64,000 nt of DNA from Thermoflexus sp. (lineage in GTDB: Bacteria > Chloroflexota > Anaerolineae > Aggregatilineales > Aggregatilineaceae). The stretch is taken from assembly GCA_020724465.1 (NCBI GenBank), contig DYGX01000003.1:62001-126000 (forward strand). Direction: 5' to 3'. The position numbers and the translations under genes are program-made. Shown here piece after piece: positions 7,142 to 32,381 of the stretch (the first letter of the stretch is position 1; every line of letters starts with the position of its first letter). The notes beneath the pieces were generated by a model. That model searched no databases. It was not told the DNA's origin and saw only the letters and a program-made list of their open reading frames with translations.

Positions 7142-9570
<2,429 letters not shown>

Positions 9571-19217: not shown

Positions 19218-21113
19218 ATGATGATGACGCGACGGATGTTGACAATTGCCGGTCTGGTTCTGCTGCTGGGCGGCGTGGCGTTCTGGGCGCTGGCTGCGGG
19301 GCCAGGGCTGCCGCGCACGGCGGCGTCTCCGCCCCTGCAAGACGAGGCGACACCAGCTCCAGAGGAAATGCCGACCGAAGAGCCTTCGTCCACGCCGGAG
19401 CCACCGACCGCAACACCAACCGAAACGCCGCTCCCCAGCCCAACTTTCACCCTCTACGCACCGACCCGCGTCCCGCCTACGCCCGTGCCGCAGACTCCCA
19501 CCACCGCCGCCCCGGTGCGTGTCACCGAATCGGCGCTGGCACGCATCCAGGCAACGCGCACCCTGCGGGTGGGAACATACTTCAACGCAGCGCCGTTCGC
19601 GTGGCTCAACGAGCACGGCGAGATCGCCGGGTACGAAGCGGACGTGATGCGCGCGCTGGCGATCGAGTTGGGCCTCGAAGTCGAGTACGTGCAGGTCACG
19701 CGCCAGAACGACGCCGAAACGTTACTGCGCGGCGACGTCGATTTGCTCATGGGGCAGCAGACGCTGAGCCGCGACCGCGAGACGATCTTCGACTTCACGC
19801 ATCCCTATTACCTCAACGAGCATCGCATGGTGATCCGCCAGGGTGAGCCGTACGCCAGCCTGGCGCAGCTTGCCGGGCACGCCGTGTCGGTTGAGATCGG
19901 CAGCCGCAGCGAGCGCGCCCTGCGTCATTGGGCCGCGACTAACGGCGTCGAGTTCAACATCATCCCCTACATGAGCGAGCGCGAGGCACTCGACGCGCTG
20001 GCCAACGGTGAAGTGGATGGGATGGTCGGCCTGCTGGACAGCCTGCGCCGCGCCGGGCGCCAGCAGATGAGCCTGGTCAACGAGCCGGTGATGGTGGAAC
20101 CCTACGCCTTCGTTATTCGCCGGGGCGACCCGCACTTTCTCAACGTGCTGAACCGCTCTCTCCAGCGCCTGAAAGCCAGCGGCCGCCTGGAAGAAATCTA
20201 CCGCGAGTGGTTCGGCAACGAGCCGATGGACTTCGTGACGCTCGTCCCGGTCTACGACGACCTGTACGAGGACACCCGCGGCGTGGACGACTTCCCGGCG
20301 GAGCTGGTCACCCCGGCCAGCCCGGTCCGTGCCCGGCTGGAAAGCGGACGGCCGTTGCGGGTGGCGGGTGTCGCCTCAGACGGCCAGGACGCTCCGGCGA
20401 TCGTGCGCCTGATGAACGCCTTTAACCGCGCGCTGGTCGAGGAAATGGCGCGGCGCTGGGGTGTGCCGGTCGCGTATGTGCCCGACTCGGTCGCCGATCC
20501 CGAAGCGGCGGTGGCCAGCGGGGCCGCCGACCTGGCGGTGGGGATCTATCCGCGCTGGGGCAGCGACCACACCACCGACTATTCCCTGCCGTACCTCATG
20601 CATGGCGACCGCCTGCTGGTGCCCGCCAACTCGCGTCTATCCGGCTTCCGGGACATGCTGGGCACGAACTGGATCATCGGCTACTTCGCCGACGACCCCG
20701 ACGGCGAAGCGCAGATCAAGAAATACGCCGAGTTCTTCAACGTCGGGCAAAACCTGCGCACCTTCCAGATCAACCGCGAGTCTGACGCGATTTACACCAT
20801 GACCGTCGAGAACAACATCTCGGCGATCTTCGGCGACAGCCTGCGCCTGCACGCGCTGATGCGCGAGGGGAATGCAGCGAGCGTCAAGCTGCTCGATGAC
20901 GTCTTCGACTTGCAGCCGGTAGTGTTCGCCCTGCCCCAGGGCGACTCGGACTTTCGCGTGATGGTCAACACCGCTCTGCAAGACATCGCGCGCGAAGGGC
21001 TGTTCCAGACTCTGCGCCAGACTCACCTGGACCTGGGCGAGCCGGTCACGATCCCGGTCTGGCCGTCGTACAGCGCGATGCGGCCGGCTGCGCTTTCCGC
21101 CGCGCAGGGATAG
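19218..21113 (+). CDS. double-domain family-3 extracellular solute-binding protein
   Basis: This 631-residue exported protein has an N-terminal hydrophobic segment (about 8-27), a Pro/Thr/Glu-rich spacer (about 38-100) and two SBP_bac_3-like domains in tandem. The first (about 105-335) is well preserved: TLRVGTYFNAAPFAWLNEHG, IAGYEADVMRALA, DLLMGQQTLSRDRE and the ending EEIYREWFGNEP. The second (about 370-620) starts at PLRVAGVASDGQ and is more divergent. Such proteins bind amino acids or other small ligands. No permease or ATPase is nearby, so it could be a sensor-like or stray binding protein. It follows nadD by 7 nt, and its stop runs into repeat element A. Confidence 0.82.
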   Translation: MMMTRRMLTIAGLVLLLGGVAFWALAAGPGLPRTAASPPLQDEATPAPEEMPTEEPSSTPEPPTATPTETPLPSPTFTLYAPTRVPPTPVPQTPTTAAPVRVTESALARIQATRTLRVGTYFNAAPFAWLNEHGEIAGYEADVMRALAIELGLEVEYVQVTRQNDAETLLRGDVDLLMGQQTLSRDRETIFDFTHPYYLNEHRMVIRQGEPYASLAQLAGHAVSVEIGSRSERALRHWAATNGVEFNIIPYMSEREALDALANGEVDGMVGLLDSLRRAGRQQMSLVNEPVMVEPYAFVIRRGDPHFLNVLNRSLQRLKASGRLEEIYREWFGNEPMDFVTLVPVYDDLYEDTRGVDDFPAELVTPASPVRARLESGRPLRVAGVASDGQDAPAIVRLMNAFNRALVEEMARRWGVPVAYVPDSVADPEAAVASGAADLAVGIYPRWGSDHTTDYSLPYLMHGDRLLVPANSRLSGFRDMLGTNWIIGYFADDPDGEAQIKKYAEFFNVGQNLRTFQINRESDAIYTMTVENNISAIFGDSLRLHALMREGNAASVKLLDDVFDLQPVVFALPQGDSDFRVMVNTALQDIAREGLFQTLRQTHLDLGEPVTIPVWPSYSAMRPAALSAAQG

Positions 21114-21117
21114 CCAA

Positions 21118-21218
21118 ACAGCGATCGGCATCATTGCAGCGAAGCAGCGAAAGCATTGCTCTCGCTGCCTTTTGCTGTCTTTTGCTGCTCGTCGCCGCTT
21201 TTAGCTGTTCTTCGCTAC
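21118..21218. repeat. 10-nt phased inverted repeat element, copy A
   Basis: The right arm consists of units of exactly 10 nt beginning at 21164, 21174, 21184, 21194 and 21204, all close to GCTGYYTTTT or GCTGTTCTTC. The left arm carries CAGC cores at 21119, 21137 and 21145. The middle makes a 7-bp hairpin (21144-21150 with 21162-21168). It fills the space between two convergent genes, and its last unit overlaps the stop codon of the epimerase-like gene (21215-21217). The same type of element recurs at 32206-32381. Confidence 0.8.
21144..21183 (+). terminator. likely terminator within repeat copy A
   Basis: The hairpin 21144-21168 is followed on the plus strand by CTTTTGCTGTCTTTT (21169-21183). 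This suits ending the nadD/binding-protein transcript. Confidence 0.5.
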
Positions 21219-22162
21219 ACCGGCCGCCGCAGCATATACTGGAACAGCTCCGGCAGATAGCGACGCTGGGGCATATAGGTGAGCAGCGTGTCCTCAAAGC
21301 GCACTGGCCGCACCCCGCAGTAGTCGTAGAGGTTGCCTAACTGCGCCGTGCGGTTGCTGGCGAGGATGTCGAACCACTGCACTGTGGCCGGCCAGCGCGG
21401 GACAATGCGGTTCATCAGAGCCGTCATGGTGCGCAGGGTGTGCGGTGGGATGCTGATGATCGTCCGGTGCGCGCCGGTCACGCGCATTACGGTGCGCAGC
21501 ATTTCGTTGAAGGTCACGTACTCTGCGCCCCCGATCTCGATGGTCGCGTCCACCAGATCGATCGCTTCCAGGCTGTTTTCGATCGCCTTGACGAGATCAA
21601 GCACATAGAGCGGGTGCAGCAGGCTGTCGCCTTTGCCCGGCTGCAAGAACACGAACGGGTTGGTCCGCAGCAGCATGGCGATGCCGTTGACAAAGCGGTC
21701 TTCCGGGCCGAAGATCACGCCGCAGCGCATGATCGTGTAGGCGATGCCGCTGTTGCGGATCAGCGTCTCGACCTGCCCCTTAACCCGGAGCAGCAGATAT
21801 GCCGACGACGGCTCCGCGCCGAGCTGGCTGAGATAGATCAGGCGCCCGATCCGCGCCGAACGCGCCGCCGCGATCACCTGGCGCGTGCCCTGAATGTCAA
21901 TTCGCTCCAGATCGCGGCGCTTGCCCCACCACTGCGCGCTCGCCAGGTGAATGACGGTATGCACGCCCTGCATCGCCAGATGCAGCGCCTCAGAGTCGTG
22001 TAGCTCGGCTTCAGCAACGTCGACGCCTTCCGGCCAAGTCCCGCCGCGCAGGCGGCCTCGCCGCCCGGCCGGCACAGCGACCCGCACCGGCCAGCCCGCC
22101 GCCACAAGCTGGGGGACCAGATGCCGCCCGACCAGACCGGTTGCTCCCGTGATCAGAATCAT
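21215..22162 (-). CDS. NAD(P)-binding epimerase-like (atypical extended SDR) protein
   Basis: This 315-residue Rossmann protein begins MILITGATGLVGRHLVPQLV, giving the G-x-x-G-x-x-G nucleotide site. HTVIHLASAQWWGKRRDLER and IYLSQLGAEPSSAYLLLRVKGQVE follow: the catalytic Tyr is at Y-L-L-L-R-V-K, keeping the Y-x-x-x-K spacing only loosely. It most resembles the NDUFA9/YcfN-like atypical SDRs, which often bind NADP structurally rather than turning over sugars. ATG 22162 has AAGGAG 7 nt upstream; the frame stays open further upstream, antisense to fabF, but that is not coding. It diverges from fabF. Its stop lies in repeat copy A. The substrate is unknown. Confidence 0.82.
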   Translation of the reverse strand: MILITGATGLVGRHLVPQLVAAGWPVRVAVPAGRRGRLRGGTWPEGVDVAEAELHDSEALHLAMQGVHTVIHLASAQWWGKRRDLERIDIQGTRQVIAAARSARIGRLIYLSQLGAEPSSAYLLLRVKGQVETLIRNSGIAYTIMRCGVIFGPEDRFVNGIAMLLRTNPFVFLQPGKGDSLLHPLYVLDLVKAIENSLEAIDLVDATIEIGGAEYVTFNEMLRTVMRVTGAHRTIISIPPHTLRTMTALMNRIVPRWPATVQWFDILASNRTAQLGNLYDYCGVRPVRFEDTLLTYMPQRRYLPELFQYMLRRPV

Positions 22163-22305
22163 GCGTCTGCTCCTTCGGCGCCCGATTATACCACGCGCGC
22201 CATCCCGGCCATGACGGCACCATCTCGCCGCCTGGCACAGCAACCTTTTGCGCGGCAGCGGGTTATACCCTGCGAAGTCCGCCAACCTCAGGCGGCTTGA
22301 GATGG

Positions 22306-22311
22306 TATAAT
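22306..22311 (+). promoter_or_regulatory. extended -10 for fabF-fabH
   Basis: TATAAT preceded by TGG (extended -10) lies 90 nt before the fabF start. There is no clear -35 at 17 nt, which extended -10 promoters tolerate. Confidence 0.5.
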
Positions 22312-22400
22312 TACGCCGCGCGGGAAGCACATCGCCCGGCGGCGCGAACCGGGTGCCGGAACCAACCGGCACATGCTCACGGAATCGGAGGGATTGGCAG

Positions 22401-23645
22401 GTGGAATTCAAACGTGTGGTCGTCACCGGCATGGGGATTATCTGCCCGGTGGGCAACTCGCCCGAAGAGGCCTGGGCCAACGCGGCCAACGGCGTGTCCG
22501 GTGCCGAATACATCCCAGAATTTGAGGAAGCCGGTCTAAAAGTCACCATTGGCGCCCCGGTCAAGAACTTCGATGCGGAGGCGTTCATGGGCCGCCGCGA
22601 GTATCGCCGCACCGACCGCGTGACACACTTTGGACTGTATGCCAGCACCCAGGCGTTTGAGGACTCCGGCATCGATCTGTCGAAAGAAGACCCGTACGAG
22701 TTCGGGGTAGTGATGGGCACGGGCATCGGCGGCATCCAGTCGCTGATCGACGGGATCGTCGGCGTGCTGGAAAAAGGCCCCAACAGCGTCAGCCCCCTGC
22801 TGCTGCCGATGATGCTGCCGGACAGCCCGGCGGGGAAGATCGCGATCGACCTGGGGCTGCGCGGCCCGAACATGTCGATCGCCACGGCCTGCGCGACGGG
22901 CAACAACTGCATCGGCGAGGCGTTCGAGATAATCCGGCGTGGGGCGGCCACGATGATGATGGCGGGTAGCAACGAGGCCGGTATGGTGCAGCTTGCTGTC
23001 GCCAGCCTGGCGAACATGCAGGCGCTCTCGCGGCGCAACCACGACCCGAAAGCAGCCTCGCGCCCCTTTTCTGCCGACCGCGACGGGTTCCTGATCGCCG
23101 AAGGCGCAGCCGCGCTGGTGCTGGAAGAGCTGGAACACGCCAAAGCACGCGGCGCGCGGATCTATGCCGAGGTGACCGGGTACGGCAGCACCTGCGATGC
23201 CTATCACGTCACCGCCCCGCTGGAAAACGGCGAAGGCGCGCAGGAAGCCATGCGCCGCGCGCTGAAAAGCGCCGGGCTGCGACCCGAAGATATTGACTAC
23301 ATCAACGCGCACGGCACCAGCACGCCCCTTAACGACGTCAGTGAGACGCGCGCGATCAAGGCCGTCTTCGGCGAGCATGCCTATCGCGTGCCGATCAGCT
23401 CGACCAAATCCGTCACCGGCCACCTGATGGGGTCGGCGGGCAGCGTCGAGGCCGTGTTCAGCATCCAGGCGATCTGCCACCAGTTCATCCCGCCCACCAT
23501 CAACCTGGACGTGCCCGATCCCGAATGTGACCTGAACTACACGCCGCACGTCGGCGTGCCGGCGGAGATCACGCATGTGATGTCGAACTCGTTTGGCTTC
23601 GGCGGTCACAACGCGGTGCTGATCTTTAGCAAGTACACAGACTAA
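22401..23645 (+). CDS. fabF: beta-ketoacyl-ACP synthase II
   Basis: This 414-residue condensing enzyme elongates acyl-ACP with malonyl-ACP in fatty-acid synthesis. The catalytic triad is readable: Cys164 in ATACATGNN, His304 in NAHGTSTPLND and His341 in KSVTGHLMGSAG, with Lys336. I start at GTG 22401 (V-E-F-K-R-V-V-V-T-G-M-G), since GGAGGG lies 8 nt upstream; an upstream ATG at 22353 would add 16 residues unlike the family and ignore this SD. The fabH start directly abuts the stop (TAA then ATG). Other fab genes such as acpP, fabD and fabG are not in the window. Confidence 0.97.
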   Translation: MEFKRVVVTGMGIICPVGNSPEEAWANAANGVSGAEYIPEFEEAGLKVTIGAPVKNFDAEAFMGRREYRRTDRVTHFGLYASTQAFEDSGIDLSKEDPYEFGVVMGTGIGGIQSLIDGIVGVLEKGPNSVSPLLLPMMLPDSPAGKIAIDLGLRGPNMSIATACATGNNCIGEAFEIIRRGAATMMMAGSNEAGMVQLAVASLANMQALSRRNHDPKAASRPFSADRDGFLIAEGAAALVLEELEHAKARGARIYAEVTGYGSTCDAYHVTAPLENGEGAQEAMRRALKSAGLRPEDIDYINAHGTSTPLNDVSETRAIKAVFGEHAYRVPISSTKSVTGHLMGSAGSVEAVFSIQAICHQFIPPTINLDVPDPECDLNYTPHVGVPAEITHVMSNSFGFGGHNAVLIFSKYTD

Positions 23646-29425: not shown

Positions 29426-29454
29426 TTGCCAATGACCCGGCGGCTTACTATAAT
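29426..29454 (+). promoter_or_regulatory. strong promoter for alaS
   Basis: TTGCCA (29426-29431) and a perfect TATAAT (29449-29454) are 17 nt apart, giving a leader of about 40 nt. Confidence 0.75.
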
Positions 29455-29501: not shown

Positions 29502-32222
29502 ATGAAAAAGATGACCAGCGCGCAGGTGCGCGAGGCATTTCTGGACTACTTTGTAGAACTGGGTCACAAGCGGGTCGCGTCGTCGTCGCTGGTTCCCGGC
29601 AACGACCCCACGTTGCTGTTCACCAACGCCGGGATGGTGCAGTTCAAAGACGTCTTCCTGGGCCTCGACCAGCGCGACTATTCGCGGGCCACGACCGCGC
29701 AGAAGTGCATGCGCGTCAGCGGCAAGCACAACGATCTGGAAAACGTCGGCCCGTCGCCGCGCCATCACACCTTCTTTGAGATGCTCGGCAATTTCAGCTT
29801 CGGAGACTACTTCAAGCGCGAAGCGATCCACTACGCCTACATGCTGCTCACCCGCGTCTACGAGCTGCCCCCGGAACGGCTGGCCTTCACCGTCTTCGAA
29901 AACGACGATGAAGCCTACAACGTCTGGGTCAACGAGATCGGCGTCGACCCGCGGCGCGTCGCGCGCATGGGACCCAAGACGAATTTCTGGCAGATGGCCG
30001 AGACGGGGCCGTGCGGCCCCACCAGCGAGATCCACTGGGACCTGCGCCCGCACGAGGGCATTGACACGATCATCGGCGATCTGCGCGCCGAAAGCGACCG
30101 CTTCCTGGAGCTGTGGAACCTGGTCTTCATGCAGTACAACCGGCTGCAGCCGGATCCGGATCACACCGGCCAGTGGGACCAGCCGCTCCCCAAGCCCGGC
30201 GTCGATACCGGCATGGGACTGGAGCGCCTCTTAAGCGTGATCCAGGGCACCGACGCCAACTATGAGACCGACCTGTTCATGCCGGTTATCCGGCGAGTGC
30301 AGGCGCTCACCGGGCACACCGACGCCGAGCGCGACGCGAACATCGTGCCATACCGCGTCATCGCCGATCACATCCGCGCCGCGACGTTTTTGATCGCGGA
30401 TGGCGTGCGTCCTGGTGCGACGGGGCGCGACTATGTCTGCCGCATGGTCATCCGCCGCGCGGTGCGCTTCGCGTCCAAGCTGGGCTTCGACGAGCCGTTC
30501 CTGGCGGATATCGCAGACGTGGTGATCGAGACGATGGGCGAGCACTACACCGAACTGCCCGAGCACCGCGACGCCATCCGCCGCACCATCACCAACGAAG
30601 AGGTGCGCTTCCGCCGCGCGATGGACCGCGCCCTGGCCGAGCTGGGCGAGATGCTGGCCGCGCTCCCACCAGGGGGAGAGCTGCCCGGTGCGCTGGCCTT
30701 CCGGCTCCACGCCGAGAAGGGTCTGCCGCTGGAAATCACGCGGGATGTGGCGCACGAGCAGGGCTACACCGTAGACGAGGCCGGGTTCCGCGAGGCGCAG
30801 CAGCAGCACGAGGCGATCAGCCGCGGGCGCGACGGCGGCGCGTTCGGCGCGATCATGACCGGCGAGGTCTACCAGTCCGCCTTGAACGCGCTGCGCCAGG
30901 CAGGCCGGCTCAACGGCGGGGTTCGCCAGGAGCAGTACGGCCCGCTGCGCTGCGAGGCGACCGTGATCGGGATTTTGCGCGACGGCGAGCTGGTCGATCA
31001 GGCGCAGGCGGGCGACACCGTCGAGGTTGTGCTCGACGTGACGCCGTTCTACGTCGAGTCGGGCGGCCAGGTGAGCGACACCGGCGTGCTGCAAGGCGCC
31101 GATTGGACGGTCGACGTCGAGGACGTGCGCCAGCCCGTCGGCGGGCTGATCGTGCATCGCGGCGAGGTGGTCGAGGGCCAGCCGCGCGTGGGCACGCGCT
31201 GCACGGCCCAGGTCGACGGCGAGCGGCGGCTGGACATCATGCGCAACCATACCGCGACCCATCTGCTGCACGCCATCCTGCGTCAGGTTCTGGGAACGCA
31301 CGTGCAGCAGCGCGGCTCATTGGTCGCGCCGGACCGCCTGCGCTTCGACTTCAGCCACGACCAGCCGATCACGCCGGAAGAGCTGGACGCCATCGAGCAC
31401 AAGACCAACGAAGCGATTCTGGCGAACATGCCGGTCCTGGCCGTGTGGAAAGACCTGGAGACGGCGCGCGCCGAGGGCGCCATGGCGCTCTTTGGCGAAA
31501 AGTACGGCGAGCGCGTGCGGACGATCAACATTATGCAATCCGAAACCGACCGCTTCAGCTACGAGCTGTGCGGCGGGACGCACGTCGAGCAGACCGGCGT
31601 GATCGGCCCGTTTGTGATCGTCTCTGAGGGCAGCATCGCGCAGGGCATCCGCCGCATCGAAGCGCTGACCGGGCGCGGCGCCGAGGCGTACATCCGCCGC
31701 AGCCTGCATCACCTCAAGCAGATCGCGGCGCGGCTCGGCACCACGCCGGACGCAGTCGAGGCGCGCGTGCAGGCGCTTCAAAGCGAGCTTAAAGCGCAGC
31801 AGTCGGAAAACGCGCGTCTGCGGCGTCAGCTCGCCCGCTACGAGTTCGAAGCGCTGCTACACAGCGTCGAGACGATCGGCGACGCGAGCGTGCTGGTCGC
31901 GCCGATCTCGCCTACCTCGCCCGACACCCTGCGCGAGATGACCGACTGGTTCCGCGATCGGGTCGCCAGCGGGGTGATCGTGCTCGGGATGGTCGGCGAT
32001 GGCGGCAAGCCGCAGTTGATCGCCGCCGTGACCAAGGACCTGACGCCGCGCATCCAGGCCGGGGCCATCATCAAGTCCATCGCCGCGACCATCGGCGGCG
32101 GGGGTGGCGGGCGTCCCGACATGGCGCAGGCGGGCGGCAAACACGCTGAGCGCCTGCCCGAGGCGCTGCAACAGGCGTCGGCGCTGATCCGCGAAAAGCT
32201 AACGGCAGCGCAAGGCAGCTAA
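29502..32222 (+). CDS. alaS: alanyl-tRNA synthetase
   Basis: This 906-residue class II enzyme charges tRNA-Ala and clears misacylated species. The aminoacylation core opens with MTSAQVREAFLDYFVELGHKR and FTNAGMVQFKDVFLG. The editing domain zinc site is N-H-T-A-T-H-L-L-H with C-G-G-T-H-V. The C-Ala domain ends with GGGGGRPDMAQAGGK. The length is normal. The start is taken at ATG 29502; MTSAQ at 29511 is an alternative, and a more upstream in-frame ATG overlaps the -10 box. The last codons (A-A-Q-G-S) and the stop are already inside repeat element B. Confidence 0.98.
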   Translation: MKKMTSAQVREAFLDYFVELGHKRVASSSLVPGNDPTLLFTNAGMVQFKDVFLGLDQRDYSRATTAQKCMRVSGKHNDLENVGPSPRHHTFFEMLGNFSFGDYFKREAIHYAYMLLTRVYELPPERLAFTVFENDDEAYNVWVNEIGVDPRRVARMGPKTNFWQMAETGPCGPTSEIHWDLRPHEGIDTIIGDLRAESDRFLELWNLVFMQYNRLQPDPDHTGQWDQPLPKPGVDTGMGLERLLSVIQGTDANYETDLFMPVIRRVQALTGHTDAERDANIVPYRVIADHIRAATFLIADGVRPGATGRDYVCRMVIRRAVRFASKLGFDEPFLADIADVVIETMGEHYTELPEHRDAIRRTITNEEVRFRRAMDRALAELGEMLAALPPGGELPGALAFRLHAEKGLPLEITRDVAHEQGYTVDEAGFREAQQQHEAISRGRDGGAFGAIMTGEVYQSALNALRQAGRLNGGVRQEQYGPLRCEATVIGILRDGELVDQAQAGDTVEVVLDVTPFYVESGGQVSDTGVLQGADWTVDVEDVRQPVGGLIVHRGEVVEGQPRVGTRCTAQVDGERRLDIMRNHTATHLLHAILRQVLGTHVQQRGSLVAPDRLRFDFSHDQPITPEELDAIEHKTNEAILANMPVLAVWKDLETARAEGAMALFGEKYGERVRTINIMQSETDRFSYELCGGTHVEQTGVIGPFVIVSEGSIAQGIRRIEALTGRGAEAYIRRSLHHLKQIAARLGTTPDAVEARVQALQSELKAQQSENARLRRQLARYEFEALLHSVETIGDASVLVAPISPTSPDTLREMTDWFRDRVASGVIVLGMVGDGGKPQLIAAVTKDLTPRIQAGAIIKSIAATIGGGGGGRPDMAQAGGKHAERLPEALQQASALIREKLTAAQGS

Positions 32223-32381
32223 AGACAGCCAAATGCAGCTACAGACAGCGAAAGACAGCTACAAGCAGCAGAGAATACCTGCTCTTCGCTGTTCCTAGCT
32301 GTTCTTCGCTGCTCTTTGCTGCTCTTCGCTGCTTCTTGCTGTTCTTTGCTGTTCCTTGCTACTCTTCGCTTTCGTGTGCTA
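32206..32381. repeat. 10-nt phased inverted repeat element, copy B
   Basis: Left array: CAGC cores at 32206, 32216, 32226, 32236, 32246, 32256 and 32266, exactly every 10 nt. Right array: GCTG-like cores at 32288, 32298, 32308, 32318, 32328, 32338 and 32348, then GCTA/GCTT variants at 32358, 32368 and 32378. The left and right cores mirror each other around 32278.5, so the transcript can fold into one long imperfect hairpin. Unit consensus on the right is GCTGYTCTTY. It begins inside alaS and ends just before the next gene. Open frames through it (KEQQ/EEQ-rich) are by-products. Confidence 0.9.

Follow-up and report, generated by a model that had tools for sequence, protein, structure and literature searches.

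The window, a 64,000-nt stretch of a Thermoflexus sp. contig (DYGX01000003.1, positions 62,001 to 126,000), contains two members of a family of decamer arrays, copy A at 21111-21217 and copy B at 32196-32371. Both are built of decamers that read C-A-G-C-N-A-R-R-R-R in one arm and, across a short loop, the reverse complement of this in the other. Their features are as follows.

21111-21113, plus strand: TAG stop of a solute-binding-protein gene (ORF 19218-21113; Pfam SBP_bac_3; sequence)
21112-21155, plus strand: left arm of copy A, degenerate units AGCCAAACAGC ... GCAGCGAAGCAGCGAAAGC, read by eye and under the array-scan threshold
21158-21217, minus strand: right arm of copy A, six units by the array scan, five of them consecutive from 21164 (sequence and array scan)
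21215-21217, minus strand: TAG stop of an epimerase gene, TAG followed by CGAAGAACAGC, the array beginning inside the stop (sequence, orthologue comparison)
32196-32275, plus strand: left arm of copy B, eight units (sequence and array scan)
32220-32222, plus strand: TAA stop of alaS inside a unit (AGC-TAA) (sequence; alaS equivalog match)
32279-32371, minus strand: right arm of copy B, nine units, ending about 20 bp before the ATG of the next gene (sequence and array scan)

The outermost AGC of copy A is formed by the AG of the solute-binding-protein gene's TAG and the next C. Copy A spans stop to stop, leaving nothing between the two genes but array and the degenerate left arm. The original prediction had five decamers in a row from 21164, and they are present (GCTGCCTTTT GCTGTCTTTT GCTGCTCGTC GCCGCTTTTA GCTGTTCTTC, then GCTA), as is the epimerase stop it placed at 21215-21217 on the reverse strand. 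The extent given for copy A had to be corrected, the element starting at the stop of the other convergent gene (21111-21113) and ending at 21217. Copy B lies about 11 kb off and overlaps the alaS stop at 32220-32222, both as described; copy A stands between convergent genes, whereas copy B is followed by a gene of the same orientation as alaS. The first units of copy B's left arm are translated, as ..K L T A A Q G S, and the alaS stop comes from the third.

The 642-aa epimerase ORF (21215-23143) matches Pfam in residues 327-573 only, and its first ~250 residues align in relatives to separate frames broken by stops; it is probably an over-long call from a TTG. A near-consensus promoter (TTGCCA, 17 nt, TATAAT; 11/12) at 29426-29454 overlaps the TTG called as the alaS start, so that the true start is likely further downstream. 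In three relatives (G003, G005 and G006) the match to alaS breaks in two around query residue 400-413, and additional codons lie between the parts, which suggests an insertion in the protein.

The family unit is a decamer, CAGC-N-ARRRR, usually arranged in two inverted arms that together cover 30-267 bp. Among 834 units of two-armed elements, 468 from the host genome and 366 from its sister species G001, conservation of the core letters C, A, G and C is 89, 93, 99 and 97%, the fifth position carries 0.09 bit and so is close to random, and each of the last five positions is a purine in 92-98%. A rare double variant, C7+T8, occurs in seven units, compared with 1.2 expected, spread over several loci. 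A three-unit pattern finds 177+197 = 374 matches in the host genome and none with the reversed pattern, and these matches are not due to chance. A unit-array scan at a score of at least 20 finds 14 arms in 300 kb of host contig C4 and three in the window, and none in reversed sequence. Unbiased density comes from the 10 arrays of that 300-kb contig and the two of the 64-kb window; the 12 arrays in 364 kb extrapolate roughly to ~145 copies per genome. The catalogue of 41 arrays (30-267 bp, 2-16 units per arm by the array scan) includes 29 more, which were fetched around similarity or pattern matches and are not a random sample. Rfam has no match at gathering score in the 64-kb window.

Two side features of the host assembly may be mentioned here. 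At C20:900-5400 (L025) a four-helix-bundle/23S rRNA IVP gene lies between two arrays in which one odd run of units, TAACTA/CAAGAG, recurs, giving the impression of a partial duplication of the block; the gene was considered as Avd, but it scores under the Avd cut-off. The ends of contigs C17, C24, C29, C31 and C49 have sequences in common (ACCACAAAAGTATGCCAGATGAACCC..., ...GAGGGGGCGACACTAACAACGGACAGGAGG...), probably those of an insertion sequence that breaks the assembly.

The family is carried by the host genome and two congeners, G001 (145+130 matches to the three-unit pattern) and the third congener G002 (30+36 in an assembly 73% complete), and the pattern is absent from 28 other relatives. 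In 396 genomes drawn from the class, a four-unit pattern occurs in the host genome only, and in none of the other 395. A two-arm pattern, searched in the contigs of 84,980 species, a set that may omit the host genome, finds 11 stretches in just two Anaerolineae MAG records, 'Anaerolinea sp. Tomsk_5_66_7' (eight) and 'Anaerolineae bacterium SJ484' (three). No published description of the family was found among papers outside subscription. A four-unit one-arm pattern matches 17 viral stretches; a viral origin was set aside, since the 15 inspected look like unrelated simple decamer repeats. Viral contigs L065/L071 and L062/L074 (L065, L071 and L062 inspected) have one-sided decamer runs, GGCTGTTTTC and GCTGTTTTTT, and those of L065 resemble a terminator with a multiplied stem foot and T-run.

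Seventeen of the 41 arrays lie between convergent genes and 20 have one adjoining 3' end, the other side of one of these being off the stretch. Three adjoin gene starts only (C10:119713, where the far neighbour has no Pfam match, C13:10123 and C20:2812), and for one (C13:12434) the nearest 3' end is 1061 nt away. Genes were called by a simple codon-usage script with unclear places checked against Pfam, so single calls may be off. By hand count, 44 of the 55 gene 3' ends at these arrays meet the array edge within -37 to +4 nt. The remaining 11 lie 8 to 1061 nt away from it; one of them is the left side of copy A, where the unit at the stop is degenerate. Spacers without an array vary widely: the 50 between convergent genes range between -4 and 804 nt around a middle of about 80, and the 160 between co-directional genes have a median of 107.5. 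That the element inserts or expands right at 3' ends, as had been proposed, is supported by this abutment and by one gain polarised by an outgroup, described below. A role at 3' ends is not universal, as some arrays are one-armed and three of the 41 stand at gene starts only.

Two kinds of junction account for most of the abutting ends. At 17, with an offset of -2 (11 ends) or -3 (six), the A or AG of the stop opens a unit; at another 17, with offsets of -7, -17, -27 or -37, a unit contains the stop, as AGC-TAA or AGC-TAG; ten have other small offsets. The context of the first kind, TAG followed by C or TRA followed by GC, is by itself common, being found also at 99 of 262 stops that have no array. 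For the second kind, the unit length of 10 nt means that consecutive units, where these have T at the free position, offer stops in all three frames. The AlaS C-termini are REKLTAAQGS in the host, REKLQNS in G001 and RQTLES in G002, each followed by AGC-TAA from a unit, and array-free relatives end in other short tails of their own. The idea that the element supplies the last codons thus holds at alaS, where last residues and stop codon both come from the array, and at the 17 of 55 ends with a stop inside a unit, but not at the epimerase gene. There host and G001 end in RRPV, with TAG followed by CGAAGAAC, and other relatives in RRPY or RRSY; the replacement of that gene end is contradicted by the array-free orthologue of G007, which has the identical RRPV terminus. 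This C-terminus does not depend on the presence of an array, so here the element begins at the stop and leaves the protein unchanged.

Comparison with G001, 91.5% identical to the host over 53.7 kb of aligned stretches, reveals both turnover and gain. The G001 stretches, chosen mostly for holding arrays, contain 25 array sites, 21 bracketed on both flanks in the host and four anchored by one flank only. Nineteen of the bracketed sites hold a host array, including L111:1691 and L118:876, which a scripted coordinate test missed but in which array scan and flank alignment show an array; two are empty. At filled sites the flanks align up to the stop and the arms differ by whole decamers. Unit copy number varies accordingly, with 6 units in the host and 10 in G001 in the epimerase arm, and 5+10 in the host and 17+6 in G001, in opposite orientation, at site 175494. 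At L144:1005-1157 of G001 a different sequence of ~150 bp splits two arrays where the host has one; it is perhaps a second kind of small repeat.

One empty site could be polarised. Here a gene that we take from its sequence to be dtd-like and its convergent partner have stops that overlap by 2 nt in both the host and the outgroup G002. In G001 a 122-bp array separates the plus stop, whose last base is 7395, from the minus stop, which begins at 7518. Neither protein changes in length at its C-terminus (MRG, MRS and MRV; RSRQQRP, QSRPPSS and PARQRKA). This is the gain of an array exactly between two convergent stops. With regard to the fixed terminal inverted repeats and target-site duplication of a MITE, the 2-nt overlap at this single polarised site has become two separate stops, and the ends of arrays vary. 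The second host-empty site (L119:4413-4548) adjoins a gene start, and polarisation applies to the dtd-like site only.

A full-consensus array now stands at a site that used to be empty, and loci share rare variants, which together suggest spread by copying. A different account would have the arrays arise in place as minisatellites. At many genes an ordinary terminator, made up of A-tract, GCAGC stem, GCTGC and T-tract, would have expanded by slippage at the stem foot without any mobility, and all would have converged on one consensus because it works as a multi-register bidirectional terminator. This account would fit the change of arrays by whole decamers, the array at C4:117511 that ends in a plain terminator (GCAGCCGGG..CCCGGCTGCTTTT), and C4:215235, where an ordinary terminator stands beside the host array and G002, without an array, has a similar hairpin. 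The G001 gain tells against it, being a complete consensus array at overlapping stops with no spacer or terminator to expand, as do the one degenerate consensus common to all loci and the sharing of some rare variants. We consider in-place origin unlikely, though it deserves serious attention.

Copying by a transposase, as for REP- or MITE-type elements, has far less to recommend it. Known REPs, too, are found chiefly between genes that converge or run in the same direction, and the ends of GTAG REPs often give TAG stops (PMC3733652). The arrays have no fixed palindrome of 20-40 bp, no constant end tag in the listed flanks and no evident tie to a Y1 transposase: PF01797 (Y1/RAYT transposase) occurs in 20 of 21 genomes, carriers and non-carriers alike, and the single G001 match is weak and falls within a frame of 1055 codons. 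Neither a transposase nor a target duplication nor a donor was identified. Of the two arrays absent from the host, L119 and L123, the first matches other arrays at best at 73-80% over most of its length (one 63-nt stretch 89%), and the second has none among the matches listed. An element moved by a transposase is very improbable.

RNA of copy A has a fold z-score of -3.0 on the plus strand and -5.0 on the minus strand, and that of copy B -4.3 on the plus strand; the 24 whole elements listed have energies between about -28 and -145 kcal/mol. As for the suggested terminator action, RNA of both strands folds well, but a simple terminator scan flags neither copy A nor copy B. Position and folding together suggest a possible RNA-level role at 3' ends. 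Rho sites are C-rich, and the arrays were rejected as such, since most single-arm arrays are purine-rich in the sense strand; a DNA uptake signal, weighed from recall alone, was also rejected.

Against expectation, the two arms of an element match each other less well than they match the arms of other elements. For 31 host and 24 G001 two-armed elements, with 5000 random re-pairings of arms in each set, agreement at variable positions between arms of the same element is 0.485 in the host (0.522 ± 0.008 re-paired) and 0.494 in G001 (0.528 ± 0.010), and none of the 5000 permutations is as low in either species. Duplex energies are likewise weaker than those of re-paired arms. The longest perfect complementary stretch is 9.7 nt in the host, against 12.0 ± 0.7 (0/5000 permutations as low), and 9.9 nt in G001, against 11.6 ± 0.7 (0.3% as low). 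G at unit positions 7, 8 and 9 (0-based) anticorrelates between arms (-0.59, -0.66 and -0.52; null sd 0.14) in a pooled set, n = 55, whose members are not independent, given the common descent of the two species. No clear correlation is seen between arm lengths (0.26 in the host, -0.01 in G001). Since arms of the same element pair worse than random pairs, this is the opposite of selection for a stable hairpin alone. An assembly artefact was rejected, as none of the 20 ends of 10 host contigs, out of 56, carries an arm, and the assembly seems not to break at arrays. Replication strand and gene direction were also rejected, because the signs of the arm differences vary within single contigs; at nine co-directional elements neither arm is consistently G-rich. 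SbcCD cleaves palindromes, and we think that the mismatch may reflect removal of near-perfect ones. We know of no description of such a rule for terminator-like repeats.

The mismatch also bears on two other explanations. A dedicated system might write the arrays at gene ends, recognising a stop-proximal AGC or stop-stop overlaps, laying down units of degenerate consensus and keeping the arms in different 'spellings' (NAAGAR versus NAAAGR/NAAAAG), never a perfect palindrome; we give this only a slim chance. Rather doubtful, too, is a DNA-level site, an array phased at 10 bp (about one helical turn) and bound by a nucleoid or topology protein, for which pairing would be irrelevant. The avoidance of pairing and the single-arm arrays would suit it, as would the conserved core with a free fifth position, like a binding motif, and the copies that lie between divergent genes. 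It has no candidate protein, however, the A/G identity of the purines is loose, and by itself this explanation leaves the inverted arms and the stop-codon abutment unaccounted for.

The reading that we favour, by a small balance of probability, is that of a dispersed, genus-restricted repeat made of inverted tandem decamer arrays, which spreads, is kept mainly at 3' ends and has a role as an RNA hairpin. On this reading the array is lineage-specific and spreading, tolerated at 3' ends and probably useful there. Elements would reach new sites by copying from existing ones, and after arrival the arrays would grow and shrink by whole decamers. Copies would survive mainly where nothing breaks, at gene 3' ends, either starting at the stop codon itself (TRA before GC, or TAG before C) or replacing the stop by one from inside a unit (AGC-TAA, AGC-TAG). 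RNA from either strand would present a purine arm followed by a pyrimidine arm and form a long imperfect hairpin, which most likely would end or protect the transcripts of both neighbouring genes.

An abundant element thus remakes gene ends in one genus of uncultured Chloroflexota, supplying stops, altering protein tails and separating overlapping convergent genes. Sites that hold an array in one species and none in another, ~92% identical, make it directly testable how such arrays come to lie at 3' ends and whether they act there as terminators.

Several known systems resemble these arrays in part. REP elements near stops were reportedly treated by Liang in 2015, and the original MIRU paper is said to be that of Supply in 1997. 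REP/BIME elements are likewise of high copy number, extragenic and mostly downstream of convergent or co-directional ORFs, and their ends can give a TAG stop (PMC3733652). These GTAG- or CGTC-tagged elements are one fixed palindrome of 20-40 bp rather than decamer arrays. The arrays have no constant GTAG or CGTC foot, the bases before AGC varying (TGAGC, TAAGC, TAGC, CAGC-TAA), and no evident link to a RAYT. As in minisatellites or VNTRs, unit copy number varies between close relatives. The MIRU-VNTRs of Mycobacterium are also variable tandem arrays in spacers that measure a few bp in repeat-free relatives (PMC2734929); their units are longer (40-100 bp), the repeats direct, and the junctions stop-start rather than stop-stop. 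BrickBuilt of Porphyromonas gingivalis, a minisatellite in a MITE, is a species-limited tandem array with small inverted ends, but has a 23-bp unit in 19 copies, lies 49-591 nt from genes and has promoter activity (PMC4596501). The heptamer arrays (TAACTGA) of Beggiatoaceae are many short tandem sets in the spacers of one lineage; they are direct repeats and lie mostly just upstream of start codons (PMC4679880). Bidirectional intrinsic terminators also place a hairpin soon after the stop, A-rich before and T-rich after, for two-sided use (PMC1590033), whereas in the present arrays an arm may hold up to 17 repeats of stem and tail, and the two arms do not match.
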